From contig NC_092575.1 in the NCBI RefSeq assembly GCF_037975245.1, forward strand, positions 11,705,001 to 11,769,000: 64,000 bases of DNA, given 5' to 3'. Under the pieces are notes generated by a model, which was not told the DNA's origin, ran no database searches, and worked only from the letters and a program-made list of their open reading frames with translations. This DNA comes from Apostichopus japonicus. Its lineage: Eukaryota; Echinodermata; Holothuroidea; Aspidochirotida; Stichopodidae. The number at the start of each line of letters is the position of its first letter. The first letter of the stretch is position 1. The position numbers and the translations under genes are program-made. This document shows positions 1 to 30,080 of the stretch, one piece after another.

Positions 1-588
1 TTAAACCTTGGTGTTTGAGAAAACCATGACTTTTGTTTCGTTATCATTTCGGTTGACACACGTATATATTATTGCAATGTTTTTTTTTTTTACATTTTAT
101 CGGTTAAATGAAAAAGAAATTATACGTCAACGTTTGCTTCAATCGAATTTTTTAAGCAACAACGCAATATGTTTTACAATTATTAGATGAGCCGTTTACA
201 TTTCAGTAAAGGATTAGTTTGGACCGGTGCAAGACATGACTGGCTATTAAGTAATTAAGAAGTTTGTGAATGCATACCTCTTTCAGTTGCTCTGTTTTAT
301 TACATTTTATATTGCAGGTTTACTAAAGAAGGGACAAACTGATGTTGTTTTAATACAGAGAATACTAATTGCTAAATAAAAATAAAACAAAACTGTTAGC
401 AAACTGCTTATCCACTAAAGAGCCTGTGTAAATGACAAGCTTGTCATATAGCCTCTGAAGAAGACCCTGCTAGGATCGAAACGTCAGGCCAACTTTCTAT
501 TACACATGCTAATTCTATCAAAAATAATCTATTTTGATGAGAAATACTATACTCTATTTTATCTTAATTCCGAACACAACTGTTTTAG
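1..588. other. 5' flank or intron of the Ig-receptor gene
   Basis: I find no convincing coding exon here. The stretch is AT-rich and contains the hammerhead-like motif at 451-490. An ATG at 537 is in frame with the first Ig exon and would give a short hydrophobic start (MRNTILYFILI). However, a good 3' splice site (acaactgttttag) ends at 588, and all later exons of this gene use phase-1 junctions. A separate signal-peptide exon upstream, possibly outside the window, is therefore more likely. Confidence 0.5.
451..490 (+). ncRNA. hammerhead-ribozyme-like motif, copy 1 (retroelement remnant)
   Basis: Read 5' to 3', the motif has gcct, then CTGAAGA, then a small hairpin (gaccc / ggatc), then GAAAC, GTC and aggc. 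The outer gcct/aggc pair as helix I. CTGANGA and GAAA are the two conserved core strands of hammerhead ribozymes, and GTC is a classic cleavage triplet. With GAAACGTC, helix III would be only 2 bp with no loop, as in the minimal, dimer-acting hammerheads known from Penelope-like retroelements and retrozymes. One extra A lies between the core and helix II, so activity is doubtful. A related copy is at 15684-15726. Confidence 0.5.
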
Positions 589-744
589 GTACTAAAAGTG
601 TTTTGACAGACTGTACAAGCCACCAAAATGCACGAATCGGCAGTAGTTGGAAAATTGACTGCAGGCTACAAGGAGATTGGAGCGAAGTTAAATATTACCA
701 CGATAACCCAGTCGAAGGAAATTTACTAATTATGTCTAATCAAG
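589..744 (+). CDS. Ig receptor exon 1 (first half of Ig domain 1)
   Basis: Acceptor tgttttag precedes 589 and donor gtaagc follows 744. The exon encodes the B-strand Cys (KIDCRL) and runs to NLLIMSNQ. It is 156 nt with phase 1 at both ends. Confidence 0.75.
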
Positions 745-3700
745 GTAAGCCTTCAACATGTGGAAGAGTGAGTTATTTCCACGAGTATTAACCATTAATA
801 CACAATTCAATATAGTTATACATTATTCGATACATTTTTACTATTTCAATTCAGCTTTCTTTTTTTTTGCATGATTGCGTTATGATGACGGTGATAGTTT
901 ATAATGACTAACAGGACTTCATTAACTCTTAAAAAGTGTTTAACTTGACAATGTATATTTTTCAAAGAATAATTGATATCCCTTTTTATGAAAGTATAGG
1001 TAAAGTTAGAGGTAAAGGGAAAGGGAAAGGCGTGGGTTGACACAAGTGAGAACAATCAAGAGACAAAATGAAGCAATTTAATGATTGAAATATATAAAAC
1101 TAGGCAGGCAGATTGAATTTGTCTAATGAATAACGTGATTTACGTGGTTTGCCTTACACACAATATATCACAGTTCTTGTACGTCAACACAGCGAGACCA
1201 ATTGTTCAACCCGTGATCGAACAATACTGCTTACCTATACTCTTTTTAAAGGAAGGAAACGGCTGTTTACATATAGTGAGTAACCGCATCAGAACATCCG
1301 TGAAAAACATATTGCAAGGAAGTAATAATCCAAATGTAAACAATCAGTAACATTCCCTGCCCATATCCATATTATAGGTTTGTTCAGATATAATAAAAAG
1401 TTTGTGATTGCCAATATAAATATAAATAAATATTATATAAAGTATAATGTTTACATACATTATAGGAACTTGATATGACTTTTATATGGATTCCCTTCAT
1501 AAACTCCACATCAAATTTGAGATAATTCGAATATGGGCTGGATATAAAATCCATATAAAACTATTACATAATATAAGTTTCATAAGGTTAACAAAGTAGA
1601 ACCCTTATATAATTATATCAGACTTTATATAGCTTTTTCCGGATTCTATATATAATGTCCACATGAAACATTTATGAATTTGCTTTATATGGTTCATATA
1701 CAAATATCATGTTCAGTTTAAGGTTATATAAAATTCCCGATGCAACAGCAATATGTAGAAAATATAAGCTTTAAATGTAGTAAACCTTAGCAAGTTGTGC
1801 AGTACATGGGTCTGGTTTACAGTACTGTACATTACGATACCGAGATATATAACTGGATGCGTTGGAAATGCAGTAACTCTCCTAAATGTACACACCGTGG
1901 CTGTAGGCCTACTAATGTTACTGCTAGTAAGTAGTGCAGTGGGCCGTGGGCTAAGCTAATTCGTGAATACCGCACAATGCTACACTCTGTTGTAATATGT
2001 TTGTGACATGCTTTAACTAGTCAATAAACAAGCATAAGAGCAAAGAATTACTTATTCATTTGAGGGTTGTGGGTTGTTTTGAAACTATGAGTCTTTTTGT
2101 TTTAAATTTTGACAGGAAAGGCTAGATATGACATTATGAGTATGAAATGTTCTGACTGGAGAATCTTTTAACTTCTTTGACATTTTGGCTTGCTTTTTTA
2201 TGTCAGATATTATACGTCATCTCAATTCTACTCCACTTTCAAGATAACGAGCATAGATTTGGATTTGGGCGCGACATCAGTACGCTGGATATTGATGAAG
2301 ATGGCGCCATGGTTATCAACAATGTTACAACTGATCATATATCTTTGTATACGTTGATATACACCGACAGAGACGGACATGATTATCAACATGAATTTAT
2401 AATTATAGGTAATGCTAGTACCATTCATTTAAAGAGAACATTATTATAGAAACAATTTACCTAATATCGAGAAAGAAAAATGTTGATCTTGTTATTACTT
2501 CACGGTTAGGTACAGCAGCAAAGCATCATAAATGACGTTAAAAAATATATAAACTGAGAAAATGCAAACACGAATTTGCTTATACTGATTTACACGTAAA
2601 AACAAATTCCTTGAGCTATGTGATGAAAATTTGTATGATTGCAGAAGAATGTACCTTTGGAAATAAAAGAGCATTAAATGTGATTTTACTGACTCAAACC
2701 AATCAGGTTACAGCTTCCTCGTCGTTTTTACTTTTTTCACAGATTGTCCTGACATTACTGTTTACGCCCATCATGGATCCGACGCACTCATAAATTGTTA
2801 CTTCCCTCAGTCGCAAAGGGTTTTTTGGTACGATTCAACTTCACGTAATGCTCGACCAATCGCAAGTCTTGAAGGAGGCCGGAAGGCGGGGTCAGGAGTC
2901 TCTGCTGGGAAATACGATATTACCAATACCGGTGGTCTGCTGACAAGGAATACTACTTTCAGCGACGAAAAAACATACCGTGTTATAGTTATTGTATCCA
3001 ACATACATACATTAACAACAGATCAGGAAGTCGTTATTTATGGTAAGTCAGTGTTGTATATTAAGTTATGAGAATAACCCTAGCTGTAAACCGCGATTAT
3101 TTTGACCTGCCATAGAAATTCGGTCCTGAGATAATACCTACCAAACTCAGTAACATTTATGTACCATGTTATCCAGTTTTCTAAGAAAAAAATAGGTAAA
3201 TAGGCCTGAGTTGGAATGTATAAGTTATAGTTTCTAATGTGTTGTTTGTAGCAGGATCTTCTTCAACGACAAACGGAAATGAACACAGTTTCAATACGCA
3301 TTCGAATAAGATTCTGCCATGATCGACACTTCAGGTACCCTTACTTGTTTACGTAATCTGGTTTTCTAAGGGTTTCGTTTATTCTACAGCAAGCGTCGAA
3401 ACAGCGGTATTTTCAGTAGATGTTTGCGAGGGAAGAAACTTCTGTTTGGTGCAGCTGCAAGATCCGACATTTTTCATGTGTCGGGAAACAAATACAGGAC
3501 CTCATACGTTACTGAGCTGGACAAGGAACACATCAAACGGTACACGATTAGTTAATACTTCTAAGTCCTTTGATGGAAACATGTACGAGGCTTTCGTATC
3601 AACGAATGTAAATCTTAACTCGACAGACCGACTATATGTTTACATCTGTAACTCTATAATAGATATTCCAGCTAAGCCATTAAGACAAATAGTTGTAATG

Positions 3701-5965
3701 GTCGAAGATGAGAGTAAGGACTACATCACTACTCTGTTGAAACCGACATATTATAGGGCATATGATGACGTCAGGTTAGTCTGCACCAATGAGAATCCTT
3801 TGTTCATATTATGGAAAAGAAACCACGAAACTATTGGATACTACCACGAAGGCAAATCGGATGTATTGAAACCTGGCTACGAGCTTGGTAAGGATGGATC
3901 GTTGCTCATTACCAAATTCTCATATACACATGAAGGTGAATATGTTTGTATCTACAACAATGGTAAAGTCGAGGACGTAAAGCAACATAATATCAAGACC
4001 GTTGGTGAGTGCCTTTATTTTTGCAAATCTCTTAATTTATTGTATAATATACCCTTCTTGCGTTCTACTGACTATAAACAATACCGTTTGTTCCATTTTT
4101 CTTTTTCATATTGTTTTCCGAACATGTTCCTGGTTTTAACTTACTTTCATGGTGCATTTATCAGACGGGCCCAATATGAGGTACAACGTCATAACTAAAC
4201 GTTAATTGATCTGCTACATTAAGGTCTCAAAGTCACAGATAAATACTATTCATCAAAAAGCCTTGCTTCACATTAACTAGTTAGTGCAGTGTCATAGTAT
4301 TGCTAAAGCTAACTATATCATGACTAACAACCTCAAGATATAGAGGTATATTGTCTTTCTAATGAACAAACCTTTATCTTTATCATGCTAATCAATCGGT
4401 AGGTAGAACGCTTGGAATATATATTGCAATCTTCGTCGTATCCGTAGTAATAATAAAAAATAACAATCTGAAAATGAAAAACAAGTTAAGAACTATACCG
4501 TTTATAATTTTCTCTTCTTATGTCTTTATTCATTAGTTACACCAATCAATCCTACACCTTCTATCGTTGGGTGCTCAGAGCCATTGGATTGCACATTTAA
4601 TGTTACAAGCAGTGGATATCTGACATGTTTAATAGAGGGCGTTCTTCCAATCGTGTATCCGAAATGGATCCACGATGAATATATTTCTTCCAGAATTACA
4701 TTCAGTCGACCACAGCTAATAGTGAGAAATATTGGGTCTTTGTTTAACATATACTTGACTACTTACTACGAAATAACGACTGACCAGGTTTATGAAAGTG
4801 AGACAGACGAAGACTGGCAGACTTATGACGTCACAGCGTCCTGCTCTGTGAACTACGAGATTCTTGGGCAACACAAGACAGACGTTACGCTGCATCTCCA
4901 GAAACGTACTTCAGGTGACTTCATACAATGCATAGGCTTCATGAGGAGATAAACTGTTACTGTATGATGATGATAAAGGAGCTGTCAATTGAAATTAGAC
5001 CACCCCATTGGAGCTTGTTGAAACATTCTTTTTCTGGGTAGTGATCTTCAAGTAAAAATATATAGAAGGGAGAAGACTCATTTTTCAGCAGTTGGTTTTA
5101 AGTGTGGGGCGAAGGTGGGGGAGGGGGATATTTAAATGACATTTAAAGGAGAAGCCAATTCCCCAACCCATGCAGACTGATGTGATAAATATGCCTGTGA
5201 TGAATAACCCACATCACATAAATAAATCGTCCGTTTTAAATTATCGCACTGTAAACATATCGAGCTTCATAAATGACATAAAGATTATCCAAAACTAAAC
5301 GTAAAAGACCCCTCGTAGCACCCCCTTTTGGTTCCGAAATGACCGAATTTAATTATTTCAGAAAATCTAATACCATGTCTTAAGATACGGACAGTTACAT
5401 ATGGAGAGCAACATGGTATATTACCACAACCGTGACGTTAGGATTTTCTTTGCATTCAGAATAGTTACAGGCGACTCAAGGAAGTTGAAACTCACAAATC
5501 ATGCGTAGGATGTAAGTTTATGCGGATTAGCATTTTTCCAGCTTATGTTTAATTTTCAGCTACTAAGTGTGTATCAATCGTATTCGTCATATATTATATC
5601 TATCTTTTCGATTTGTTTCTTGCAGCTGTAACAGAGGATAGGATAAGAAAGAGGTTTGGAGGTAAGTTTAAACATGCTGATAATTTTGCTATATTTCATA
5701 TATTAACATGGTAAGTATAATTAGCACACTACATTTGATGCTATATTAGTGTTAACATGCGTTTCTCGTTTTTATTACAGTACATAATAACTGGCTGTGT
5801 GTCATCCTAGTCAGTGTAATGGCTGTCATTATGATTATTGTTTTTGGCTATTCAAAATGGCGAAATGGCAAAGCAGGAAATTGGACCTGTGTCGACAAGA
5901 ATACATCTGATGCCGAGAATACTTATAAGAACAACGGTGAAGACAACCCAGCCTTGACAATTTGA
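589..5965 (+). CDS. Immunoglobulin-superfamily type I membrane receptor (5 Ig-like domains), N-terminus incomplete
   Basis: Joining 589..744, 2244..2408, 2743..3042, 3390..4004, 4537..4914, 5626..5661 and 5781..5965 gives 610 codons plus stop. Every junction is phase 1, as is typical for Ig-family genes. Domain 1 is split over exons 1-2, domain 2 is exon 3, domains 3 and 4 share exon 4, and domain 5 is exon 5. A short charged linker exon follows. The last exon encodes a transmembrane segment (WLCVILVSVMAVIMIIVFGY) and a ~35-residue tail with no clear ITIM or ITAM. Domains 4 and 5 keep both Ig cysteines and the core Trp. Domains 1 and 2 keep the first Cys but have Leu or Val where the second is expected. 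N-glycosylation sequons are common (NVT, NTS, NST). The signal peptide is not identified. Ligand and specific family are unknown; a cell-adhesion or immune-type receptor role is inference from architecture. Confidence 0.85.
745..2243. other. Intron 1 of the Ig receptor; AT-rich stretch
   Basis: No coding signal is seen. Bases ~1381-1720 are strongly AT-rich with many tata/atataa words. Small open frames here have no recognisable domain. Confidence 0.5.
2244..2408 (+). CDS. Ig receptor exon 2 (second half of Ig domain 1)
   Basis: The acceptor ctccactttcaag ends at 2243. It was chosen over the AG at 2206 because only this one keeps the frame from exon 1. It encodes RFGFGRDIST and the late-strand motif TTDHISLYTLIY, where the usual YxC cysteine is Leu. 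The donor gtaatg follows 2408. Confidence 0.75.
2743..3042 (+). CDS. Ig receptor exon 3 (Ig domain 2)
   Basis: Acceptor cttttttcacag precedes 2743 and donor gtaagt follows 3042; it is 300 nt, phase 1-1. It has the Cys-Trp pair of an Ig core (INCYFP and VFWYDS), but SDEKTYRVIV has Val in place of the second canonical Cys. Confidence 0.8.
3390..4004 (+). CDS. Ig receptor exon 4 (Ig domains 3 and 4)
   Basis: The acceptor attctacag ends at 3389 and the donor gtgagt follows 4004; the exon is 615 nt, phase 1-1. Domain 3 has FFMCRE, LLSWTR and LYVYICNS. Domain 4 is the most typical: VRLVCT, FILWKRN, GSLLITKF and HEGEYVCIY. The open frame runs on into the intron to 4198, but that part looks non-coding. 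Confidence 0.88.
4537..4914 (+). CDS. Ig receptor exon 5 (Ig domain 5, constant-like)
   Basis: Acceptor tctttattcattag ends at 4536 and the donor gtgact follows 4914; 378 nt, phase 1-1. Motifs GYLTCLIEG, YPKWIHDE and YDVTASCSVNYE resemble an Ig C-type fold with both cysteines and the Trp. Confidence 0.83.
5626..5661 (+). CDS. Ig receptor exon 6 (juxtamembrane linker)
   Basis: A 36-nt exon between tttcttgcag and gtaagt encodes AVTEDRIRKRFG. It is phase 1-1, so it could be skipped without breaking the frame. RKR just outside the membrane is a possible basic cleavage site (inference). Confidence 0.75.
5781..5965 (+). CDS. Ig receptor exon 7 (transmembrane segment and cytoplasmic tail)
   Basis: The acceptor tttttattacag ends at 5780. 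A hydrophobic stretch of about 20 residues starts at NNWLCVILV. It is followed by basic KWRNGK (stop-transfer) and a hydrophilic tail ending NPALTI, with TGA at 5963-5965. Confidence 0.88.
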
Positions 5966-6160
5966 AAGGAGCTATACAATGTGATTGAATAATTACTGGG
6001 TTCAATTTTTAGTAGTTTATCATATTATACATCGACACAATGACTAACCACATTTATATTCGGTTAATAAGTAACAAGCCTATAATATTAGCAAGCACTT
6101 CTGTATAGAAATTTTGACTTTAGATAAGAATCAAATTTTCGAGTGCTTTGGAGTGACTTC

Positions 6161-6166
6161 AATAAA
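6161..6166 (+). terminator. Poly(A) signal AATAAA of the Ig receptor gene
   Basis: AATAAA lies 196 bases after the stop codon, in the expected place for the 3' end of this gene. Confidence 0.7.
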
Positions 6167-6189
6167 ATATCTATATTTGTATTACTAGT

Positions 6190-7350
6190 TTGTAGTTTAT
6201 TTGGAGTTTGGGTGGAGGGGGGGGGGGGCGGGGTTGTGCAAGGGTTCATTCGAATTTCCAAATTATATCTTTCGTTTTTCGCAAAATAGGGATAAATGGA
6301 CTCTTAATGTGAGAATTCCACAGCCTGAGATTTAAGAGAAAGAGAACTATATAAAACGGTAAGGGTCCATTTGTCATTTTTTATAACTTATCTCTTGTGA
6401 TAATATACGAATGAAATACTTTATCATTGAATTGTTTTCCACTAAATGCAGTTAGTAAGAAGAACTGTTTGTGGTACCTTTTGATGAAAGTCAACATATT
6501 TTGTAATTATAACCATGTAATTGTTTAAATCTTGTAAAATATGTCATGTAATAACTTAAGTTTATATATGTTATGGTATCTGCTCAACATAAACGGGTTA
6601 TGAAATCAATAACCGGACGTGTAGGTTAAATATTCGAAGATAAACTTGTTCATTTGCCTTGGTCGTTATTTCCATTCCTTTTTAATTAGGAGAGTGTGTA
6701 ATTGGGACTTATCTAGCGACATACTTTACATTGTATTAAATTTTGTACTTTACATTCCACTGCCGACGAGCATCCCAACGAGACCGAAAGTTATAATATA
6801 TTTTCTAACAAAGTACTCTTTATTTGTCAATATGAGTCATATCTTATTTCTCTGCTTTTGTCTAATAATATTTATTTAAATATTTTTATTTTGTCCGTGA
6901 CTTCTACGTAACGACAGTCCAGTTGTGTCGGTTCGTGATCAGTCGTTATAGCGCCATCACCAAATCTTGGGTATAAGCCAATAAAGCAAAGTTGCATGTC
7001 TTTGGTGACTGCAACTAGTGGATGGCCTCGTATTAGACAAAGCAGCTAGGTTGTCGAATGCAAAGAACGCAATTGTTTTATCCCCGACTGTTTGTCATGG
7101 ACACCTTGCTTGTACGATGGCAAGTTGTGCCATTGGACAGCGATGAAAGGATCACCTCTCTGTCATCCCTCTACCGCCTCCTAACGTTACATTGCTTTTA
7201 TTCAATGATATTTCCAACCGGAATTTTTCCAACCCTCGTTCACGCCCGCCCCCCCCCCCCCCTCCCAAACTCCCTCCTTACGAAAATTTACCAACACACG
7301 AAATGAAAGTTTTCAAATGAAACATAGAGAATAGGTGAGTATTCTTTCTA
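6190..7350. other. Intergenic region between convergent genes
   Basis: It separates the Ig receptor (+) from the avidin-like gene (-). It has poly(G) and poly(C) runs (about 6217-6229 and 7250-7262). Short open frames such as 6646-6879 match nothing I know. Confidence 0.5.
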
Positions 7351-7368
7351 TTTATTTATTAATTTATT
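7351..7368 (-). terminator. Poly(A) signal cluster of the avidin-like gene
   Basis: The + strand repeats tttatt here, giving overlapping AATAAA signals on the - strand about 460 bases past the avidin stop codon. Confidence 0.5.
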
Positions 7369-7670
7369 TTTTGTCCATCGATTTGGTCGTTTCACATCAG
7401 ACTTACATGTATACAGGGTGCACTTTGGCAATGAAAAGTATGTTATGTAAATACATAAGACAGTAGCGTTAGGTATTCCGTTAGCAGCGTATATAGTGAA
7501 CTAAACCAAGCGCATTCTATTAATAAGTTACAATACAAAATACTCCAGCACTCCACCAACCGCATCCCTTCCCAGACTAGGTATTAGTGATGTGCGCCAT
7601 ACGAGCGACAAAAGGCTCTTCCCTCTTCTCGCCCAGAATGAGAAATTCTCGATAATGAAATAATTATGTA

Positions 7671-7858
7671 CATAACTAGCAGGGTGAGTTACAAGAATTC
7701 CGTGATTGATCTAAAGTAACGTAACTAGCAGGGTGTGTTACAGGGATTCCGTGATTAACCCTGAAGTAACGTAACTAGCAAGGTGTGTTACAGGGATTCA
7801 GTGATTGACCTCAAGTAACCTAACTAGCAGGGTGTGTTACAGGGATTCCGTGGTTGAG
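7671..7858. repeat. ~50-bp minisatellite, 3.8 copies, overlapping the end of the avidin CDS
   Basis: Units begin at about 7671, 7721, 7771 and 7820 and contain taactagcagggtgtgttac followed by gattccgtgattga. The rightmost unit supplies the avidin stop codon and its last ~10 codons. Confidence 0.9.
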
Positions 7859-7923
7859 TTTGTTCGCATTCACCATCTTCTAAAGGAAGTTGTCTGAATC
7901 GAGTAAAACAATCCTGACCGATC
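7824..7923 (-). CDS. Avidin-like exon C (last barrel strand, tail and stop)
   Basis: The acceptor ttattattttcag precedes 7923. The split codon makes Arg, then IGQDCFTRFRQLP, followed by a Cys-rich hydrophilic tail ending NPCNTPC and TAG at 7824-7826. The tail is encoded within the minisatellite. Confidence 0.82.
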
Positions 7924-10900
7924 CTGAAAATAATAATGAAAGAGAAGATTTAAGTCAGTGATAGAAGACAAACGTGCAAGGTGTGGGGGGGGGGGGGTGG
8001 GGAGAGGAGGAGGGAGGCAGAAAAGAAAGTAGAGGTCATAATTTACATGCACAATGGAATGTAATTCTGCATTAGTCGAAGACACATCCATGTTACTGGT
8101 AACTTGATGTCCTGAAGGAAACTTTTTAAAGATCCTCTGTTCGCTTGCAATTGCTTTCGCATTCGGTACTGATATCTCCATATATCATAGTATTGTAGCA
8201 GAGAAGGGCCACACCATACAATTTGGGCGGGGTCTTTATCCCCTTCCCCAGAAAAAAAACAAAGGGTAGCTCAGCCCAAACCTCAACCACCCCACCCCCC
8301 CCCACCCCAGCACACACACCGGCAGACGGAATATTATCAAATGTACAGTACAAATGTATACAACATACGTGTGCGGCACAAACTAAACAGTTGTAAAGCT
8401 TCAACATTGATTCAAAAGTTGCAACATATAGCACCGTTTTTCATCCTAGGCACCCTCCCCTTGGAACCCATCCCATATACGATATATCACCTACAACCCC
8501 CCACCCCCGTTCACGGACGTTTTCTCTCGCAATAAGGTTAGCATTATCCAGTTAGCATTATAGGATTCATTTTAGGTACATAAAAATACAAATTTGGATG
8601 GTCGTCTTCGTTTTTCTGATTGCTACTGGAAATATTTATACTGAATAGAAGAAATTTATGGGGGGGGGGGGTCTCTGTGGAGGTTTAAACTGACTTGACA
8701 AAAAATATACTGAGGATAAACGTATCAATAGATTTGATGCACATGCCAGCTGTATGTGTTCTTTTAAGACAGATTTGATAAATATTACATTATTATATTA
8801 ACATAGAGTTAGTAAGTTGACGGAGTTCATAATCTTATTTGAAGTTTTAAGGAAGGTAGCAAATCGTGAAACTAATAACGAATTAACAAGCATATCAGAT
8901 ATTGTGATTGAACGCTTTACTTGTTTTACTCAGTTGTATTTCTAATCGTCTAACGTTCAATTCCGTTAATTGTCAAACATTTTCTTTTTATAAAATGTCT
9001 GACAATTAACGGAATTGGACGTGGTGGTACTATTCAGAAAAGTCACTATAGAAAGAACCTGGCCACGAAAAACCAAACAACAAAACGACTGATCCGCTCT
9101 CAACCCCAGTCCTCTTGCATCGAGACTGTGACTCTTTGATCATCGTAAGGTGTGTATAACCATTCCCCCAGAAAGGGAACAGATACTACACATGATCTTA
9201 GCCAAAAGGCTGAGAAGCGTTTGTTATGACACTAAGGCAGGCTCTACGCTAGCAGACTTAAGAAGAAAAACGAACCGACTTAAGGAAAGTTTAAAACGTT
9301 GTTTCGCACTGGAGGCCAGTTTGGATTTTAGTGACTCGTTTACTAGTTGGAGGTACTTTCAATTCTTCCTTGCATGTCTGTAGTTATCTATCAGAATTAT
9401 GTTTTATTTCCGTTATCGTCTGATCTTTGATCTCATATTTTAAAGTATACGTGTTATCGTCAGGTCGTTTTAGATATAATTGGAATGTTGGAGTGTTGAT
9501 GTTGACTTTGAGAAATAAGGTACATTCTCTGGTAATTTTTTGTAACAATCTGTCTAGATTTAAGCATTACTTCCGTAGAGCTTTGAATGGGTTTGTTCCG
9601 ACTATATTTCAAACTATTTCTGAAATGCAACCTATAAGCTTAATGGATTGTCACCTAACTAGTGTAACCACCCGACATACTTAACTGATTGTTTATAAGC
9701 ATACTTAAAGGAAGAGATGGCAAATTATGTTTAGACTATCGAAATGGTTTGGTTCAGTTCTTACAGATCATTCGTGTTTAAAGAGAGATACCCCCCTCTG
9801 TTCGCTTTGCAAAATTATGATCCACACCACAATTCTATGCAATTATCACAAGTATGCATTATGACGTATCATAGCAGCGTTTTGTGACATGCACCTCGTA
9901 AAGTCGTCTTACGAGAGCAAGGTGAAGACACATTTCCCACAGAAACGAGTCTGAAGAGCTACTGTAGATCAGGGAATCCAAATTGATAATAACGATTGCC
10001 AGATAGAAAAACACAAATTGGTTGGAGCAAAGTGCCAGAGCTAACCAGAATCTCAGAATACCTAGAATGGACAATGTTTCGTTTCGTTTTTTTTTCAATT
10101 ACATACACATAGGCGTACGAGGCGGGGCGCAGGGGGCAGACTGCCCCCCCCCCCAAAAAAAAAATTCCAGAGGACAAGAAATTCGGGCAAAAGTCCTGAA
10201 AAAATTCGGGCAGCCTAAGAGGAGAAAAATATATATATATATAAATATGCAGTAGCTTGCCCGAATCTTTTTCATATTTTTTGCCTGACAATTCCGTGGA
10301 GAGTGTTCTGTGTTATTTGTTTTGTGACATTAATATTAATATAGGCCTAATGATTTTCTTTATTTAGCATCATGATGCCCGAATATTTCCGTGTAACACC
10401 ACCGTAAGCGCAGCTCGTCTGGGCTACCACGCTTTTTGCACTATCGCCCAAAATTATTAACAGGGAACGCCGCTCACAATCGTGGTGACATGCATGCATG
10501 GAGATTAGCAGTCTCTTTGAAGTGAAAAAACCGCAGTAAACATTTTTTCTAACTAGTCAACTGTATACCTGGACATCCCCGACATGAGTGTATACAAGAA
10601 ACATTTTCTTTTTCATGGATGGTGGGGGGGGGCCTACAAGCCTAAAAGTACAGGTTTATCATATTCTTTGTTATTTTTTATACTTTTTTGTGAGACAAAT
10701 TGCAGTGTCACCCGACACAGCGACATTTTCCCGCCTACAATATATGTTTTTTTTCTGGAGGTAGCTGAGTACTGTGTTAAAATAATAAATACCGTAACTA
10801 AATAGGAGCTTAAAAACTATACTGTCCTATTTTTCCCCTTCAAAGTGATTTTACCATTTTTCTTCTTCTAATTTACCAAATTTTGGGGGAAGTGTAAATT

Positions 10901-12770
10901 TCTAAACGTGAGATTATAAAATAAAGAATGTTTAGATGCAACTTGCAAGGCCTCAGAAGTACCATTTCCGGCAATCTGAGAGGCATATTTTGCCAAAAAA
11001 ATTCTTGTACGCTACGCGCCAACCAATGGTGGCGCTCCGCTTAGATAGTGTCACGGGAACTTTCGGACACAAAAGTTTCTGCCCCCCAAACCGAAATGGT
11101 CCCGTACGCCTATGTACATACATACACCCACACATACACGCACACACACACATACACAATTATAATACAAAAATTATCAATGTGCAGCCGGCGGGCTGTT
11201 CAAGCCTAAGCCTATAAGGGCCCGCACATTCCAAACATTATGGACCGATTTTTGTCATTGTTCTTTATCAGTCTGCATTGAAATCCTTCGAGGGCCTGAT
11301 GAAACCCGGCTTTATTCTTACCGTGTTGATAGTGGGCTTTCAAGACACGATGTTGTCACAGTTTTCATTATCCATGATGTGAATATGACAGGAACGTCCT
11401 GGCATATCTTGTATTCACCATTCCATGTCACTACAGTGGAATTGAACCAGGAGCCAACGAATCCGATAGTGCTATTAGTTCCATCTGTAGCAACAAAACC
11501 AACCAATGGAACGCCTGGAACTAAGATAATAAAGTATAGAAATGTATTTGGCCATTATTGGAATTCTAAAAAAGGTAAAAACGTTGGATATCTATGTCTC
11601 TGAAAGAACAGAACGAAAAAGAAATATGTATATATATTTTACAGTGAATGAGGGACTTGCTAAAATCTCTCTTGATCAGGAGTGTATCTATAGGAGTGTT
11701 AGCTCTGTGGTAAACGCCGGTGCATGCCTTTCAATCATAAGGTTCCGAGTTCGAGTCACTCCAAGATTAATGTTTGTCGTCCAGTTACAGGGTTCTTGAC
11801 AATTGACAATTCATAATCATGGACGTTAAATATGAATCTAAGAGACTGACAACGGTCAGCTTGCAGCTTTGATAAGCCACTGATGGCTTCTTTGCGAGTT
11901 CTTGCTTGCAGGAGGATCTAAAATACATATATACATACATAAAACTTCCTAGTGCTAGTAGGGCCAAAAGTGTGTCGTACATTCTGTACTACACCATGGC
12001 GGCTCCTTGGTTGCTATTCTGAAGCATCAGCACATATATAGTTACATAATGTAATCAGCATTATTACATTCATATCTAACAGTCTCCTATACATACATCT
12101 TACTAGTAGCAATATCAAGTTAAAAAGGGAGACAACACAGAATAAACCCTTTGGGCATGGGGTAAGTAAGGGGTCAAGGGGACCGGGGAAATATGGGATA
12201 ACAATAAAGGTATTCTCACTTTCATAATATACTGAACGGATATTGAAGACTTAAAAAAAGAGGTCCGAGTGACATAATTATCACCTGGGATCCGAAAGGG
12301 CTTTCGATTCACCTGGGAAACATAAAGTATACATTGAGAAACACACTGAAGCCGCGAGACATCCCCTAAGGATGCTGACTTTGAGAGTGGATATAAAAAA
12401 TGAAGGATATTTCTTTTTAGGAATCTACAAATCTAGAAAGTATACACGTTCAAGATTACATGCTAGCTCTACCAACCCTTTCCATATCTTTCTGGGTGGG
12501 GTGGAAGGGGTGAGGTCCAACCACCACCATCTCTTTTCTCAGATCAATGAAGGATGGTTCGATCTCGAGACCACTGTTTGATTTATGCATACCCGGGTAC
12601 ATGTATAGAGAGTGTTAAAATACACGTTCGTGGTTACTTACTAGCTCCACTACCGGTACGGACCAAAGCTGTATAGTACTGGCCTTGTAGTGATCCCGTA
12701 GAAGTTGACGTCACTTCCATGTAAGAACCTAATTGGTTGTGCCATGTTCCATTGTAGTTCACCGTCTCTG
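7824..12770 (-). CDS. Avidin/streptavidin-family protein, N-terminus incomplete
   Basis: Joining 12770..12642, 11520..11322 and 7923..7824 gives 141 codons plus stop with matching phases. The first exon starts the barrel with YNGTWHNQLGSYMEV, keeping the avidin Trp10, Asn12 and Ser16 equivalents, then GQYYTA (Tyr33, Thr35). The middle exon has GFVGSW, TWNGEY (like streptavidin TTWSGQY) and FTSWIM (Trp108). The last has RIGQDCFTRF, like the family's closing VGxDxFT with the Asp128 equivalent. So most biotin-contact positions are present. The intersubunit Trp (streptavidin Trp120) falls at a Pro, which suggests weaker binding or a different oligomer (inference). No EGF repeats adjoin it, unlike sea-urchin fibropellins. 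Signal peptide and start are unresolved; an upstream exon may be 14861-14901. Confidence 0.88.
8956..9019. repeat. 27-bp near-perfect inverted repeat (hairpin)
   Basis: Arms 8956-8982 and 8993-9019 pair with about two mismatches around a 10-nt loop. The shared arm core is attccgttaattgtc. It lies within avidin intron 2 next to the U2 fragment. Confidence 0.85.
9177..9219 (-). pseudogene. U2 snRNA 5'-end fragment
   Basis: On the - strand the 43 bases match the 5' end of U2 snRNA with about two changes. They include the CTTTTGGCTAAGATC hairpin region and the branch-point-recognition sequence GTAGTA. Sequence after CTGTTC no longer resembles U2 (no Sm site region or 3' stem-loops), so this is a truncated retro-pseudogene. 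Confidence 0.85.
10111..11111. mobile_element. Probable hAT-type non-autonomous element
   Basis: The ends aggcgtacg and cgtacgcct are inverted. Flanks atacacat and atgtacat match at 6 of 8 positions, compatible with an old 8-bp target duplication. The right part (~10932-11050) carries the family core also seen at 16422-16540, 17175-17290, 18728-18930 and 19508-19600. Confidence 0.5.
11322..11520 (-). CDS. Avidin-like exon B (central barrel strands)
   Basis: The acceptor tttattatcttag precedes 11520, and the donor gtaaga follows 11322 after a split Arg codon. It encodes VPLVGFVATDG, GFVGSWFN, TWNGEYKI and FTSWIMK; 199 nt. Confidence 0.88.
11693..11940 (+). mobile_element. tRNA-derived SINE, copy 1
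   Basis: The head has an A-box-like gttagctctgtggtaa and a B-box-like gagttcgagtcac, followed by a ~170-bp body and an (atac)n-like tail. The same unit recurs at 47144-47400 in the same orientation. Confidence 0.8.
12642..12770 (-). CDS. Avidin-like exon A (strands 1-3 of the barrel)
   Basis: On the - strand, acceptor tttcatgtag precedes 12770; a second AG three bases on (gtagcag) is equally in frame. The donor gtaagt follows 12642. It encodes NGTWHNQLGSYMEV and GQYYTALVRTG. Confidence 0.88.
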
Positions 12771-12983
12771 CTACATGAAATAATTGACAAAAAGAGAAAT
12801 AAAACTGTACAGATCTAAATGAATCCTGCGTATTATTCTAAAGCGATTTTCAGAATCATTTGATCATTTGGGGGATTCTCGGGGATAAGGAACCCATACT
12901 TGTTGAAAGAAACAAATAACTACGCCCAGAAGAAAACAAACTGTTTCAATATGGTGGGTTAGCTGCGACCTCTATGACGCCTC

Positions 12984-13035
12984 AGTGGCGTAACTAGAGG
13001 GGGCCAGGGGCAAGCCCCCCCCCCACACTCCCTTC
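12984..13035. mobile_element. Fragment of a hAT-type terminal region
   Basis: It begins cagtggcgtaactag and runs into poly(C), like the left end of the 16965 element. No matching right end was found nearby. Confidence 0.3.
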
Positions 13036-14860
13036 ACAGAATCAGAAAGATATATTAAGCTATGATGATCCTGGACTCAATAGAGGGCGTCATAATAGAA
13101 AGATGCCAATAGGTCATTATTAGCGAAGATACCCTTCTACAGAAATTATCCGAGGTTTTATTAAATTTTGTCGAAATACGTCACTTAAATAAAGATGCGT
13201 TAATTGTTAGCACATTGTAAGAACAACATGCATAGAAATATATTCCAAAATGAGTAAACTTTGCCAGTTCAAAGTCTTAATAGTGTCATAACTGAACCCA
13301 TCGTATTTTTCATTGTTACTATATATGGGAACGGAATATATATATATGTTTGTGTGAAAAGCAAATTGACAAACCTGAGGATAGGCTTGAAAGGCACAGA
13401 CCGCACAATGTTATAATAATCTGGAAAAAGTGAGAAGAAACCAGAGAGATTGTGTAAACTTAAACATTATATATTGTAAAAAACCATGTACTATCAACGC
13501 ACACCCAGTTCCAATGTGTGCAAGTATTACTCTTTGCAATGTCCTTCTTCCTATTCAGAGATTCATGATTTCGAAAGAATCGCTCATATGCCTTGAGCAA
13601 AAACCCTCTCCAATTTAAATTCCATAGTTTAAGAGCTATAACCTTGTGTATATTCTCTGCTATGGAAGGACAATTCTAAGAAGGGTGATAAAAGCTACAG
13701 TATATAACGTACGAAGATATACCAAAAGAGTGAGGAAGGGGTTGGGGAAGAATCCCGGTGGGGCCTGGAGAAGTTTAGATATCGGATTCGACGGTGGCCC
13801 ATATGATACATTTTAACTTAAACTTTTTAGCTTAACATTTTGAACGTTTTATCTCAACATTTCTATATACTTCTATGAAAATGTTGACTTGTTTGTTGAA
13901 ATGACGGCCTCATAAATTCGAATTCAAATTCCGGCTACTTATTCAACATTTTCTAAGCTCTTAAACAGGGTATATTTAGAAATCTAATGAACTATCACTA
14001 GTCAGAGTGATCTAGGCCTAGATACCAGTTCATTTTACGACCCCTACTCTACCTACCCCCCCCCCCCGGCCCCCGAAACGCCGCCCCTCTCCTTCCATCG
14101 ACTTTTCAAGAAAAATGTGAACCAAAGCAGTCAGTTGTAATCACTTAGAAGGAAGTTAAGCGGGCAATGTCTCTCTTAAGGCGATCAGGGATGCAAGTTA
14201 GATGAAAACGATACCGTATCGAACGGGCAAGATTCCATTTTGGAGTGAGGTTTACGCTGAGAGTAATACCGTTTTTATTTTAGTGCTGTAAGCCCACACT
14301 ATAACTACCGTATTAAGCAACTTGGGACTTTACAAAAGCTTAATTGTCTTAGGAAGTTTGTTGCATATCTGTCTCACATTACATAATCTAGCTACGACAC
14401 AAATTCACTATCGAATTGTGCAGTGAAAATGAAGATGGCGTGAGTTAGCTATTCTCGGTATGAAAAACAAGTGGTTATGGTAACAACTTGCCCTGAATGA
14501 AACCATACATGTGTATGATAAGGTGGACATAAATATATACTATAGACTTTAATTATCCCTTTCTCTCTATCAGCAATAAATACGTAGAATTGTTTCTAAA
14601 CACATACTCACCAAGATTGTTCTTGTCTCCATGGTATCTCACAATGTATAAATATAGAAGCACAAATGGACTCTCGACGTGTCGTTCATATATTTTACAA
14701 ATATTTTGCTTTACATAAACTCTAGGGTATACTGTGTCCTACGGAAGCCGAGGAGTTTAAAGATTTGTGAAGAGGTACTGTAGCTTATCGTGTAGCATAA
14801 TGCAACTGTAAAGATCAACTCAAAATTATAGGTTGTGCGGAATGGAAATCCGCTTCATAC

Positions 14861-14901
14861 CTTTTAACTGCTGTGAACCCTCAATAGTATTCGCCTCGTT
14901 C
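14861..14901 (-). CDS. Candidate upstream exon of the avidin-like gene
   Basis: A 41-nt stretch flanked by tcatgtag and gtatga encodes NEANTIEGSQQLK, and its phase fits the next exon. This would be a plausible mature N-terminus. No signal-peptide exon was found upstream, so it remains a guess. Confidence 0.3.
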
Positions 14902-15683
14902 CTACATGACAAAATAAAAATTCTTAATATTCAAAAATATATTTTTTTAAATGTTACGTTTAAAAATGAGAAATATTCAAGTTACACTCAAAGGATTTCC
15001 AAATGAGGTCCTTCCATAAAGCAAAGAACATTATCGGCGACATAATCAACTTGAAGCGGGCTAGAGAGGTGCCCGGTCTGCACCTCCTAAAATAATTTGG
15101 AAATGATAGGGCCTATATGTCAAGTGAAGCGTTGGAATTAACATTAGGCTGCATTCTCCATAAGATGCGACAGCTTAGTAAAAAGTGCCTCGCCCGTCCC
15201 CGCTCCTCCCACACCCCTACCTCACCCCATCCCACTGCTCTGAACTATATTTGTTGGCCCTGTTGGGCTGTTCTCCTATCAATTCTATAACTTGAGACAA
15301 GGTGAGGGCGGGGGGGGGGGGGGCGGTTGGGTTGAAGTGTCGAACGAATGTGTGTATGTATTGACGTTTGTCTGCACACGATTAACCGGTATATGAGTGT
15401 ACATGGTTATGAAGCATTAGTCATGGATAATGAAACCAAGAGCGACTGCCGATCAGTATTAAGCATGCTTAGTGGGTCACGTGTCAATCTGACGATTAAA
15501 CTGTACGTGGGTCGAGTCACTTTACTAATGAAGACCAACTCGCTGCTTCCATTAAAATAAATATATACCTTATATTTACAATTCGAATTTTTTGGAGAGA
15601 CGAATCGATTTCACTTGAAGTTTCATAGGAATTAAAAATTCTTCAGTCCTTTGAAAGCTTCTGTAACAAACTTGATATAATTG

Positions 15684-15726
15684 AGCCTCTGGAGAAGATC
15701 CTGCTATAGGATTGAGACGTCAGGCC
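15684..15726 (+). ncRNA. Hammerhead-ribozyme-like motif, copy 2 (decayed)
   Basis: It has the same layout as 451-490 with conserved gcct/aggc outer arms and cgtc. The core has changed to CTGGAGA and GAGA, which should abolish catalysis. The sequence after it (caggccaactta) also matches copy 1, so both derive from one element. Confidence 0.5.
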
Positions 15727-16099
15727 AACTTACTTTTACACTTTGATATCAATAAATAAACTTTAAACGGAAACGTTTCCTTAGTTGGATAGTTAAAATG
15801 AAAAAGGCGCGTTATACTTCCGAAGCTAGAATAATTCCTTGCGTTTAATTCCGCTTGACCCTTCTTTCTGATGTCATTGTTGGTGCTACATGAGTCAAAT
15901 TGCTTCCGAGTATCCTCAGGAACTCTATCCGTTTAGCGTCATTTGGCATTTTGGCAAGTAGTTCATTTCCAATTTGACATTAAAAAGCTACAGTGAAGGG
16001 TAATTAATATAACAGAAATTGCATGTCCCTAGAAAAACAAATAAAACTATTTAAAAAACAGAAGAAAGTAAAAAACTTGCATGATACCGTGGCTCTGAA

Positions 16100-16185
16100 G
16101 TACGTTTTCTAGATTTCGAAGCATTTCGACTTTTTCGTTTCGAGATTTCGGTGTTTCGGAGATTTCGAAATTTGGATTCCAGATT
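16100..16185 (-). repeat. Degenerate gaaacgaaaaagtcg repeat, inverted copy
   Basis: Its reverse complement shares the words cgaaacgaaaaagtcgaaat with the larger array at 17436-17715, in opposite orientation. Confidence 0.6.
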
Positions 16186-16328
16186 TTCACTTATCACGCG
16201 TACCACGGTATACTGCTGACTGATGAGGTACAGGCGTTATGGTGGAAGATAAAACGTGAGGCACGCAGGATAACATCTACAGCATAAGGTCTCCGAACGG
16301 CAACGGAGAGATGTCGGACAACCAGACA

Positions 16329-16610
16329 CAGGCGCGTAGCCAAGGGGGGCGAAGGGGGCGACCGCCCCCAAGCATTTTTTACGTTTTTATGATATCGCTA
16401 ATAATTTCAAACTAGAAAGTGCTTAGATGCAACTTGCAAGGCCTGGGAAGTGCCATTTCCAGCGATCTGGTAGGCATTTTCGGCCAAAATTATCTTGTAC
16501 GCTTCGCGACAAATATGGTGGCGCTACGCTTAGATAGTTTCAAATGCCGAATCTACGGCTCTCATAATTTGCCTACAGGTTCACCCCTCCCTTGGCAAAT
16601 TCCGCGCCTG
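16329..16610. mobile_element. hAT-type MITE (282 bp)
   Basis: The ends caggcgcg and cgcgcctg are inverted. It is flanked by accagaca (16321-16328) and accaggca (16611-16618), a 7-of-8 target duplication. It has no coding capacity and contains the family core from ~16422. Confidence 0.8.
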
Positions 16611-16964
16611 ACCAGGCACAGATGAAGAGAAGGATAAAACAATTTCGTGAAAACAAGAAAGGACATTGCTGTCCATGTACATTGCACATTTCATATCGAC
16701 TAGTTCACTCTATAGTCATTTCAACACGTATTCGTTCAAGCAGCTTGTAAGATTGCAGCTTTGGCTGGGTTGCATGGCTAAGATTACCTCAAGATGAACT
16801 AGTCCGGTTTCAACTATCGTGCTTAGAGTTTGCACAGCATGACTGCAGTATTATAAATTGAAAAAGGATTCGGTTTCGGGGGGGGGTTATTAAAGAAAAA
16901 ACGGAAAAGGTTATTTTTAAACCAAAAGGGGAAACTTTTGAGGTTAATCATATAACTGGGGACA

Positions 16965-17351
16965 CAGTGGCGGAGCGTCCATACAGTCAGGGCGGATACC
17001 CCCCCCCCCCCACCTGACGGACTCAAATGAACTGCTGGCGCCCTTTCCAGCTTTTTACCACTTTTTACTTATTCGCGATTATTAACTTTTTCATTGCGCC
17101 CCATCTACTTATTGACATTTGTCACATTTTGTTGGTGTAATCTGGCGATGACACCTATTTATTCTTCGTTTATATGCAAATTAGCCAGGCCCGGAAAAGG
17201 GTCATTTCCGGCGATCTAGGGAGTATCTTTACTCAAATAATTTATGTGCCCCACGCGCCAACCTGTGGTGGAGCTCCGCTTAGATAGCGTCGAAAGCGCC
17301 CCTACGGACCATTCTCGCCCCTCCTGACCAATACCCCTAGCTCCGCCACTG
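16965..17351. mobile_element. hAT-type MITE (387 bp) with perfect 8-bp target duplication
   Basis: The ends cagtggcggagc and gctccgccactg are perfect 12-bp inverted repeats. It is flanked by TGGGGACA on both sides (16957-16964 and 17352-17359). Eight-base duplications are the mark of hAT insertion. Confidence 0.9.
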
Positions 17352-17435
17352 TGGGGACACATTCCCCCTGTGTCATCTACCCCGGTTCAGCGCAAAGGAA
17401 CGTTAACGCCTGCTACAGTCACATAGCTTCCAAAT

Positions 17436-17715
17436 CTTGAAAAAAGTCGAAACATCGAAACGAAAAGTTGAAATTTCAAAATGAAAAAGTCGAGATCGCG
17501 AAACGAAGAAGTTGGGAAATATCGAGACATCGAAATTCCGAAACGAAACAGTCAAAACATCGAAGATTTTAAACGAAAAAGTCGAGACATTAAAATGTCG
17601 AATCGGAACACCGAAACGAAAAGTTGCTAAACAAGACGTGTCGAACATCGAAACGAAAATGTCAAAACATCGAGACATCGAAGCGGAAAAGTTGAAAACT
17701 CGAAACGTCCATTTA
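17436..17715 (+). repeat. Degenerate ~25-30-bp tandem array (cgaaacgaaaaagtcgaga-type)
   Basis: Words such as gaaaaagtcg, cgaaacga and acatcgaa recur irregularly. Open frames on both strands here come from the repeat. Confidence 0.75.
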
Positions 17716-17897
17716 GGGCCACGGTTAAAGCTATAAAGCTATTAAGCTATAAATAGAACGATGTATTTTATGAACGGACACAAGGTCAGGACTATTAAAG
17801 AAAACATACAAAATGAATTGAGGTATGTTGTAGACCGCTAATAACCCGGTTGACAGGTCATGTTGTATTTCTTTCATTTTCCGAGGGGCTCGAGGAA

Positions 17898-17942
17898 GGA
17901 GGGTTCATCTAGGGGTGTCCATCACCCCTAGATGAACCCTCC
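17898..17942. repeat. Perfect 20-bp palindrome with 5-nt loop
   Basis: Arms 17898-17917 (ggagggttcatctaggggtg) and 17923-17942 are exact reverse complements around tccat. Function unknown. Confidence 0.95.
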
Positions 17943-18215
17943 TCCATCACAAGAGGCTCGTCAAACAGTCTACAAACATAAGCACACGCAAAATATGTGT
18001 GCATCAGGCCTAGACAAATACGGTCGCCAACTCGCCAATGGCGAGTAGAGTTTTGCGACTGGCGAGAAAAAATGCATTACGCTCGACATTTTGGCGAGTG
18101 GGTCATTCGCTCACTGACTTTATACGATAGGCTTACTATTAACTTATGAACCAATCAAGAAAGGCCTATTGCCTAATGTTACACATCACGGTAGTATTAT
18201 CAAGTGAACGGTTAC

Positions 18216-19642
18216 CAGGCGCGTATCCAGGGGGGAGCGTTGGGGCGTGCGCCCCCGGGTAAAAAAAAGAGGAGAGAAAAAAAAGGGGGAAAAGAGGGGG
18301 AAAAAAGAGGAGGAGGAGAGCAAGGAAGGGAAAAGAAAAAGAAGAAAGAGAGAAAAAGGAGAAAAGGAGGGAGTAAAAGAAAAACACCAAGACACTTGGA
18401 AGAGAAGGAGAAACAGTGACATCATTACAGCGCTGATCCCTATTATATACACAGGGTAGCCAAGGATTTCGGAAGGGGCGTGCGCCTCACCCTACCCCTA
18501 ACATCGTCAACTCCATTTTGGACGTTTCCATTTTGTCCTCACTCAATAATGTAAATGTATATATATATATGGTCTATCATAACGCGGGTGTGTGTATATG
18601 AAACCTGCTATGAAACCAACTGTGGCTCGAACATGACGCATTTTGGAAAGGGGCGACTTCCCCCACCCCCCCCCCCCCTTGAGCATATTTTTTTATGATA
18701 TCGTTAGTAATTTCAAAATAAAAAATGCTTAGATGCAACTTACAAGGCAGGGGAAGTGTCATTTCCAGCGATCTGGGAGGTATTTTCGGTCAAAATTTGC
18801 TTGTACGCTTCGCGCCAACAAATGATCCTGGGTAGTGCCATTTCCAGCGATCTGGGAGGCATTTTCGGCCAAAAATGTTCTTGTACGCTTCGAGCCAACA
18901 CATGGTGGCGCTACGCTTAGATAGTTTGCCAACAGGCTTTGCCCTCACTTGGCAAACTCCTCGCTACGCGCCTGCTCGAATTTGTAAAGCAAACAGCATA
19001 TATCACCTTATATCAATGAGCATGAAAATGGTGTTCCAAGATGAACAGCCTCAAAACTGTCTATGTGTGAAGTCATGGGCTTAGGAGCCCAATTTGATTT
19101 GGGGCTGTAACGACTTGCCCGAAAAAAAATAACCAAAAGTTTTCGCGCGCTCCGGCCCACGCGCGTTCAACATGTTAATGTCAATATCATATAAGCCAGC
19201 ATCGATTATTACATCGTATGCCATCGTGTACCTTACGATCCGTGAAAGTTGCGCAGTATACCGCGGGATGCTAATGTAAACAACGAAATATCTTATGTAG
19301 ATGGGGAAAACCTTGAAAAGTGGGGCTGACAGGTATTGTGGGCCGCGACGTAGAATCACCTACACAAGCAATGATCCACAGGACATGCGATGAGGTCGAA
19401 CATGATTTGTGACTGGTGACAATCTTAAAAAAAGGTTATGGATAAAAATAAACTATTGGGAAATACTTGGTTCTCGGGCAAAAGTGTACATCTGGTTGGT
19501 CATTTTTACTGCCTGAGAAGTGCCATTTCCGGTGATCTAGGGGCTTTCAAAACCAGAAAATTTTCTTGTACGCTGCGTGCCAACCGCTTAGATAGTACCG
19601 TAATTGGCGCCCCCGGGTCAGAAAATCCTGGATACGCCCCTG
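18216..19642. mobile_element. Nested composite of hAT-family fragments
   Basis: Inverted ends aggcgcgtatccagg (left) and cctggatacgcccct (right) are nearly identical. No clean 8-bp duplication is seen, so the bounds are provisional. It includes a purine-rich tract (~18250-18420), two partial core copies at 18728-18930 and a third at 19508-19600. Confidence 0.45.
18640..18974. mobile_element. Right-end fragment of the 16329-type MITE with internal duplication
   Basis: The core word cagcgatctgggaggcattttcgg occurs here in two adjacent variants (~18766 and ~18847). The end reads gctacgcgcctg, like the end of the 16329-16610 element. Confidence 0.6.
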
Positions 19643-20658
19643 GTTACAAGTAGGTGAAGAACTAGAACTAGAAGAACTCATCAGATGAACTAATTTGCCA
19701 ATCCCCCCCATCCGTATCTTCAAACGATTCAACTTCATTCGACATCATCATTTATTCATTTTCCCAAAGATAAGTAAGCAAGCAGTATTCGCGGGAACCT
19801 TAGCAGAAACAGAATGTGAGCACACACACACAAAACGCGTATTTTCAGAAAGTTTTTCAAGTTTCACAATGTAACTGCTGTCTGAGCTTTGTGGTTTATT
19901 CCTTCATCAGCAACAGTATTTATTGCAGTGAACTTGAAGGAAGTCCAAATCGCAGTTTTGTTCAACCACCAATGTCAACGGGAGATAACTGTGTGAAATC
20001 GCTTACTATTTTATACGTACATTATGTACGGATATTTTTCAGGCGCGGTGACTATTTACAAAGTGTAGTGATACGAACTGAACTTTCAAGGGAACAAACG
20101 TAAAATAATAATTTTGCCGAAATAACATTACATATCTCAAAATGAACAACAGGAAGTTTATTGGATTAATTTTTAGTCCAAAAAAAATTATAATTTTCGA
20201 GACCTGACCTATTAAAGCTGTAAGTCCGACTCAGTAATCGATCGATAATAATAATAATTATTGTAAGTGCCAAGCGTTATCTTAACTTGTTAACGATACT
20301 AACACATTTATACACTGATACAGTAGTCTGATGTCATGTCAAGTGAAAGTTACAGATTGTCAGCCATGCCATTGCTTAGCTTACAATGTTTCACCGTTTT
20401 ATATTTTCACATATATCATGTTTTAAACAGTTTTGACGAACCACAATTTAAATAGATCGTTTTTGCTGTAAACAACTAACAGTAACACTATATACGGCCA
20501 TATCCTAAGTTAGGCCATACTACCTAGGCTTATATCACACACAAACTTAGCGGGGGGAAATGGGGAGTAAATTTAACGTTTTGGCGAGTAGAAGTTTAGA
20601 GTCGGTCGCCAGTTGGCGAGTAGTTTAAAAAAAAAAAATGTCGAGGCCTGTTGTGCAT

Positions 20659-22255: not shown

Positions 22256-22685
22256 GTCTCTCTTCTTCGGTCCCTTCCGGTCCTCCTCCATTTCCCTCTC
22301 CGATTAGCCTCTAAACCCCTCTTTTCCCCTTCCCCCTGTCCCTCTCCCCTACCCCATCACCTCTTTCCCTCTATTAGCAAACATTTACAGCCCTTCTGTC
22401 ACTTGATGTCCCATCTGCTCCGCTCCCTCCCCCACTTTGACCCCATGTCCAATTACACTATTCACTCTCCCCCAACGCTCTCCCCCTTCAGTCTAGTTAT
22501 ATTCTCCCGTCTCCCCTACGCTCTCCCCCTCCTGTCCAATTTCATTGTCCCTTCTTCACTCTCTACCTCCGTCTTTCCCCTTAACTCTCCCATTTCTTGC
22601 TCCTCATGTTTTCCCTCCACTATCCCACTTCCGCCCACTATCCCACTTCCACCCTCCCTCCCCATCTTCCCTCTCTCCCTACAGA
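22256..22685. repeat. Pyrimidine-rich tract (~430 bp, ctccc-type)
   Basis: The + strand is nearly all C and T with recurring ctccc and ctctcccc words. The open frame at 22403-22792 is an artefact of this composition. Confidence 0.8.
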
Positions 22686-22852
22686 GCAAAAAGGAAATGA
22701 AAAAAATAAGAGATGACAATAATTTAATAACTTACTTTCATTGTTATCAATTTGAACATTACTCTACATGTCATATTCCAAAGTGTGTATAATATGTATA
22801 AATCATCTGTCCATCAAGAAAGGAAATATATACAAAATATTTGACACAATTC

Positions 22853-22918
22853 TTTCTTTCCGCGACTGACTTTTTGACAGCGTCAAAAAAAGAAAGAAAG
22901 AAAGAAAGAAAGAAAGGA
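22853..22918. repeat. (ctttt)/(aaag)n microsatellite with inverted flank
   Basis: A short ttctttcttt run, then tttttgac-agc-gtcaaaaa, then (aaag)n. The halves can fold into one long imperfect hairpin. Confidence 0.7.
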
Positions 22919-27640: not shown

Positions 27641-27773
27641 TCAGAGAAGGGCAGCGGCTGTGTTGTATAACTGCATGAGGACCACCATGTGGATTGGAAG
27701 GCAGGATCGGCGGTCACCAGTGGCTGGATCTACCGTCAACCATGACAGACCGTTGTATGTTTCCAAAACATAT
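27641..27773 (-). CDS. MED13: MED13 terminal exon
   Basis: The acceptor cgtccctttcctcag precedes 27773. It encodes [19 protein letters not shown], then [17 protein letters not shown] and a stop at 27641-27643, the exact family C-terminus. Confidence 0.97.

Positions 27774-30049: not shown

Positions 30050-30080
<31 letters not shown>

Follow-up and report, generated by a model that had tools for sequence, protein, structure and literature searches.

A predicted stand-alone avidin gene of Apostichopus japonicus with a proline at the lid tryptophan position

Exons and family membership of the avidin domain

The window, by which we mean the whole 64,000-nucleotide stretch of Apostichopus japonicus DNA that was analysed, raises the question of whether an echinoderm carries an avidin that stands alone rather than inside a fibropellin, and whether such a protein could bind biotin. 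An initial annotation had proposed three short exons with matching phases that together spell out an avidin barrel, and we found all three, with the motifs quoted for them, on the minus strand with GT-AG splice ends. Exon A (12642..12770, 129 nt) encodes strands 1-3 (ETVNYNGTWHNQLGSYMEV...TGSGA) and ends in a phase 1 donor, exon B (11322..11520, 199 nt) encodes strands 4-7 (PGVPLVGF...FTSWIMKT...STR) and ends in a phase 2 donor, and exon C (7824..7923, 100 nt with the stop) encodes strand 8 (IGQDCFTRF) and a cysteine-rich tail. The introns between A and B (phase 1) and between B and C (phase 2) are both GT-AG with compatible phases, and the three exons join into 141 residues. The TAG stop codon at 7826-7824, the end of exon C, was checked on the DNA; 3' of it on the same strand, the first two AATAAA polyadenylation-like hexamers (motif only) lie at 7368-7363 and 7360-7355.

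Membership of the avidin family was borne out by a Pfam search, in which the joined 141 residues scored 77.2 bits (E 1.7e-21) with the Avidin profile (PF01382) against a cut-off of 24, protein residues 5-116 aligning with profile positions 2-116 of 116. Exons A and B each exceed this cut-off singly (33.2 and 29.2 bits); exon C by itself gave no Pfam Avidin match. Exon C being short and lying 3.4 kb from exon B, we tested it separately with a four-sequence avidin profile built without the avidin of the window, taking the 429 AG acceptors downstream of exon B whose use would extend the protein by at least 5 residues and leaving out shorter ones. Acceptor 7923 came top of the 429 with 68.5 bits, followed by 62.8 bits for the second and compared with 56.2 bits for exons A and B only, and its acceptor score of 6.3 is the highest among the 12 candidates listed. 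The placement of exon C is well beyond chance. Matches in the PDB were tamavidin 2 (49.1 bits), zebavidin (48.9 bits) and single-domain streptavidins (about 43-47 bits), with engineered two-copy chains scoring higher, and the sequence is predicted to form an eight-strand avidin barrel. A six-frame scan of the window detected no second avidin copy; exon C itself reached only 6.0 bits there, so a lone short or diverged exon may escape detection by such a scan.

The splice sites of the avidin exons vary in strength. Exon A starts at a tandem TAGCAG acceptor whose two positions both score low (1.4 and 3.2), making either Ala-Glu or Glu possible at the junction, and its donor scores 7.5. The donor of exon B scores 8.9. 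Its acceptor at 11520 scores 2.1 versus 6.1 for another in-frame acceptor at 11514, which lies six bases inside the exon and whose use would cut two residues from the loop after strand 3.

The 5' end, the mature protein and the neighbourhood of the gene

The three joined avidin exons contain no start codon. The initial annotation, correct about these exons, had missed the 5' end of the gene, where we place one or two more coding exons, at 13420-13375 and probably at 14632-14612. A search upstream of exon A for a signal peptide contained in one exon with a phase 1 end listed 16 candidates, none convincing. A two-exon search within 6 kb returned 27 models of the 5' end, 15 of which use the acceptor at 13420. 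The exon behind this acceptor (13375..13420, minus strand, 46 nt, phase 0 to 1) encodes a hydrophobic signal-peptide core (IIITLCGLCLSSLSS plus the first base of an Ala codon); the acceptor scores 7.5, above all other acceptors in the avidin gene, and the donor (GTTTGT) is weak at 5.0. The first coding exon is probably the one at 14612..14632 (minus strand, 21 nt, ATG, METRTIL, ending in phase 0), which has the best of the three donors of the 5' model (8.5) and a frame that is open into 13420-13375. Together the two exons read METRTILIIITLCGLCLSSLSSA, followed by ETVNYNGTW.

Neither 300 shuffles of this 6-kb stretch nor 102 other 6-kb tiles yielded a model as good on each of the four scores, a result that is indicative only because the strict thresholds are the model's own values, set after the fact; loosely defined signal models occurred in 18 of the 300 shuffles and 6 of the 102 tiles. 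On a simple in-house signal score, distinct from SignalP, the model starting at ATG 14632 obtains 4.58 and ranks 6th of 27. A rival ATG at 14098 with the same second exon obtains 4.88 with weaker donors (6.9 or 3.5), another at 15877, whose donor is poor (1.6), obtains 4.63, and two models with an ATG at 16689 that lack exon 13420-13375 obtain 4.80. Since these rival ATGs outscore ATG 14632, the first exon is the least certain part of the gene model. The five-exon model runs for 495 joined nt before the final stop without a stop or frameshift, has canonical GT-AG ends and predicts a precursor of 164 residues; the gene is intact and split. The gene structure is seen on the DNA, as are the family membership and the residue changes described below; splicing in vivo is what we infer.

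Secretion had been proposed without a signal peptide to point to. The upstream exons supply a good candidate for one, and the avidin is probably secreted. Cleavage would fall near Ala23/Glu24, and a cut after Ala23 leaves a predicted mature chain of 141 residues, about 15.4 kDa and pI 4.75, with three N-glycosylation sequons and six cysteines, three of which (C151, C160, C164) are in the tail. The C-terminal ten residues (QPRNPCNTPC) and the stop codon fall within the first 49-bp unit of a tandem repeat that TRF places at 7673..7857 (7823-7855 is 97% identical to 7724-7756), and C160 and C164 therefore derive from the minisatellite. The loop before strand 8 is altered to CLESPL and contains a cysteine. 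A C105-C124 disulfide bracing the lid was considered and dropped, as by the strand boundaries of avidins the two cysteines lie in loops at opposite barrel ends.

The absence of EGF repeats, part of the original description of the gene, was upheld: no EGF repeat matched at E up to 1 in the three minus-strand frames of 1-7900, 7900-15400 and 12771-27770, and minus-strand frames over 1-27770 gave no CUB match. The only Pfam domains over cut-off in minus-strand frames of 1-27770 are Avidin and the tail of MED13 (Med13_C); in those of 7900-15400, exon A scored 27.7 bits with Avidin, and DUF7689 scored 14.7 bits, under its cut-off of 22.6. With no EGF, CUB or other domain on the minus strand of 1-27770, the gene is that of a stand-alone avidin and not of a fibropellin. 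The MED13 gene lies upstream on the same strand and ends near 27677, with Med13_C and MID_MedPIWI matches in exons over 27677-39055. The introns, the split signal peptide and the MED13 neighbour argue for an animal gene and against bacterial contamination.

Other features of the window were recorded alongside. A plus-strand gene with immunoglobulin-like exons at about 2667-4949, all of whose domain scores are below Pfam cut-offs, is convergent with the avidin gene; these exons and the MED13 gene say that the DNA is animal. An open frame at 60421-59594 (minus strand) resembles the N-terminal half of MED13 by eye, with no MED13 match from Pfam, and the presumed MED13 span is 27677-60421 on the minus strand. 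Long minisatellites lie within this span at 32347-34021, 40434-41088 and 53240-54612, and the long open frames of a 30-bp minisatellite (45.6 copies) and a 54-bp one (12.1 copies) are repeats, not genes. The intron before exon C holds a U2 snRNA-like piece at 9145-9221 (minus strand; Rfam RF00004, 50.9 bits, gathering score 46). A good match is limited to roughly the first 45 nt of U2, with most of the remainder missing, and the piece looks like a U2-derived pseudogene or retroelement head. Directly downstream of it, a nearly perfect hairpin at 8953-9022 (31-nt arms, 94% complementary, 8-nt spacer) has weak miRNA-family matches, all under gathering scores, and may be either a miniature transposable element or a hairpin RNA. 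At 10918-11053, 16409-16542, 17168-17291, 18715-18925 and 19511-19585 we noted a dispersed repeat, about 75-135 bp long, whose copies are 76-85% identical to the one in the avidin intron and are probably one mobile element family.

The biotin pocket and the possible functions of the protein

We compared pocket residues, in streptavidin numbering, in an alignment of 20 avidin domains comprising the window avidin, zebavidin, chicken avidin, tamavidin 2 and 16 loci, seven of them from Streptomyces. The window avidin has the same residue as streptavidin at W21, N23, L25, S27, Y43, W79, W92, W108 and D128, and at the S45 position it has Thr, as do chicken avidin and zebavidin. The positions that we take, from the streptavidin literature, to be biotin contacts are the ureido-ring contacts N23, S27, Y43, S/T45 and D128 together with W79, W92 and W108, and all are present. 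The changes relative to streptavidin are V47 to Leu, G48 to Val, S88 to Thr, T90 to Val, L110 to Met and W120 to Pro, the alignment being uncertain in the loop after strand 3. Position T90 is also Val in one other domain (L016) and is Ser in zebavidin. Three of the four pocket tryptophans are thus kept. The fourth is supplied by the neighbouring subunit in avidin and streptavidin, and this lid tryptophan (W120, chicken W110) is absent from the window avidin, which has Pro where 19 of the 19 other domains, a set biased to streptavidin-like bacteria, have Trp. T90, S88, L110 and W120 contact biotin's sulfur, its tail and its outer face, and the four substitutions may abolish biotin binding. For T77/S76, the position is borne out by the publication on zebavidin (PMC3811995).

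The biotin binding put forward by the initial annotation therefore meets a ring pocket that appears mostly intact and, against it, an altered lid Trp and T90. The combined replacement of W110 by Lys and W70 by Arg is reported to practically abolish binding by chicken avidin (PMC8033661). The same source describes rhizavidin and hoefavidin as tight or high-affinity binders that need no contribution from the neighbour (PMC8033661), so loss of the lid alone does not exclude binding. Judged from the sequence, measurable biotin binding with an affinity below that of chicken avidin has even odds or a little better.

We think it probable that the gene encodes a secreted stand-alone avidin that would bind biotin with reduced affinity and act in innate defence or in the storage of biotin. 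The chain, probably with glycans and disulfide bonds, would fold into an avidin barrel of eight strands, and its nearly normal polar ureido-ring pocket (N, S, Y, T, D) would bind biotin's ring. With Pro in place of the neighbouring-subunit Trp, affinity is expected to be well below that of chicken avidin and perhaps zebavidin-like. Zebavidin, whose biotin binding is described as far weaker than that of avidin (PMC3811995), provides a precedent for a weak animal avidin. In the extracellular space the protein would either sequester biotin or biotinylated material, acting as an antimicrobial or an opsonin, or keep it in store. Secretion, binding, affinity and a defence role are what we infer for this protein. 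The defence role, also suggested at the outset, enters by analogy with lancelet avidins (PMC8033661) and is weakened by the report that zebrafish without avidin show unchanged development and unchanged resistance to one bacterium (PMC13425791). Nothing in our analysis supports the lectin-like activity that had been offered along with it.

The changed pocket can be read in other ways. A barrel that binds no biotin could serve as an oligomerisation or matrix module, the function reported for the avidin-like domain of sea urchin fibropellins, here lacking the EGF repeats and possibly with disulfides through its tail, which we regard as possible, well short of an even chance. It would account for the lid Trp to Pro and T90 to Val changes and for the six cysteines of the mature chain, three of them in the tail, and it matches the description of the fibropellin avidin domain as binding no biotin (PMC8033661); yet the fibropellin changes are W70R and W110K, whereas the window avidin retains W70 (streptavidin W79) along with an intact ureido pocket, and EGF and CUB matches are lacking in minus-strand frames 1-27770. 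We also entertain, as rather unlikely, that something new closes or fills the lid-less site, the CLESPL loop or the minisatellite-born two-cysteine tail taking the part of a lid, of a clamp between chains or of a built-in ligand. C-terminal residues of bradavidin are said to serve as a built-in ligand (PMC5398887). If a closure of this kind exists, the protein would bind biotin reversibly or have switched to another ligand, and would in this differ from chicken avidin, streptavidin and fibropellin.

A switch of the barrel to another small ligand, with the altered lid and loop residues forming a new pocket, would fit the clustering of T90V, S88T, L110M and W120P while the ring end is conserved; it is improbable, given that the kept ureido-contact set is hard to account for without biotin or a close analogue. 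More improbable still is a decaying pseudogene or non-expressed allele, for which the termination of exon C within a minisatellite and the weak exon A acceptors might speak, but against which stand the uninterrupted 495 joined nt and the canonical GT-AG ends.

Comparison with known avidins

Zebavidin and chicken avidin are likewise stand-alone animal avidins and are 30% and 29% identical to the window avidin over 113 columns, but both keep the lid Trp where the window avidin has Pro. The zebavidin gene is described as having four exons of 87, 211, 120 and 42 bp (PMC3811995), whereas five are predicted here, with strands 1-3 on a 129-nt exon, in a comparison made by published exon lengths. The sequence comparison with zebavidin and chicken avidin extends to near strand 8, where the PDB stretches stop. 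Tamavidin 2 is 33% identical to the window avidin, and streptavidin and the avidins of bacterial and archaeal contigs are 25-39% identical over 16 loci. The nearest sequences compared are bacterial, from an Alteromonadaceae contig (39% over 114 columns) and Flavivirga (36%). These bacterial and archaeal-contig avidins are unbroken open frames with a Trp lid in 16 of 16, in contrast to the split gene and Pro lid of the window avidin. Viral contigs gave 26 pattern matches and no relatives. In a tree of the 20 avidin domains, 13 of the 17 inner branches are open and the window avidin, with its long branch (2.79), joins no well-supported group, so that the tree gives no ground for claiming either shared descent with the avidins of vertebrates or a transfer of the gene from bacteria.

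The lancelet avidins Bjavd1 and Bjavd2 of Branchiostoma japonicum, reported to be induced by bacterial stress and to act as opsonins (PMC8033661), come like the window avidin from a non-vertebrate animal. An avidin-like gene is reported to mark a cell type in the cnidarian Hydractinia (PMC11876637). With the lancelet avidins and the Hydractinia avidin-like gene in print, a stand-alone avidin from an animal other than a vertebrate has precedents. The protein named strongavidin is an avidin from sea urchin. Sea urchin is also named as an avidin source in PMC8033661, which may refer to the fibropellins. Among the open-licence papers listed in literature searches, no title or abstract opening names a stand-alone echinoderm avidin.

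The avidin-like domain of sea urchin fibropellin is also an avidin barrel in an invertebrate extracellular protein. Fibropellins are described with up to 21 EGF repeats (PMC10336842), and no EGF repeat matched in the minus-strand frames of 1-27770. Of the pocket changes given for fibropellin, W70R and W110K (PMC8033661), the former is absent from the window avidin, and the W110 equivalent is Pro, not Lys. The locus thus offers a well-defined stand-alone avidin with a predicted complete coding structure for a family that is patchy across animals, and its natural lid replacement would make a test case for the dependence of biotin affinity on the neighbouring-subunit tryptophan. As far as sequence can tell, it is distinct from the avidins compared in its lid residue, its cysteine tail and its predicted exon layout.
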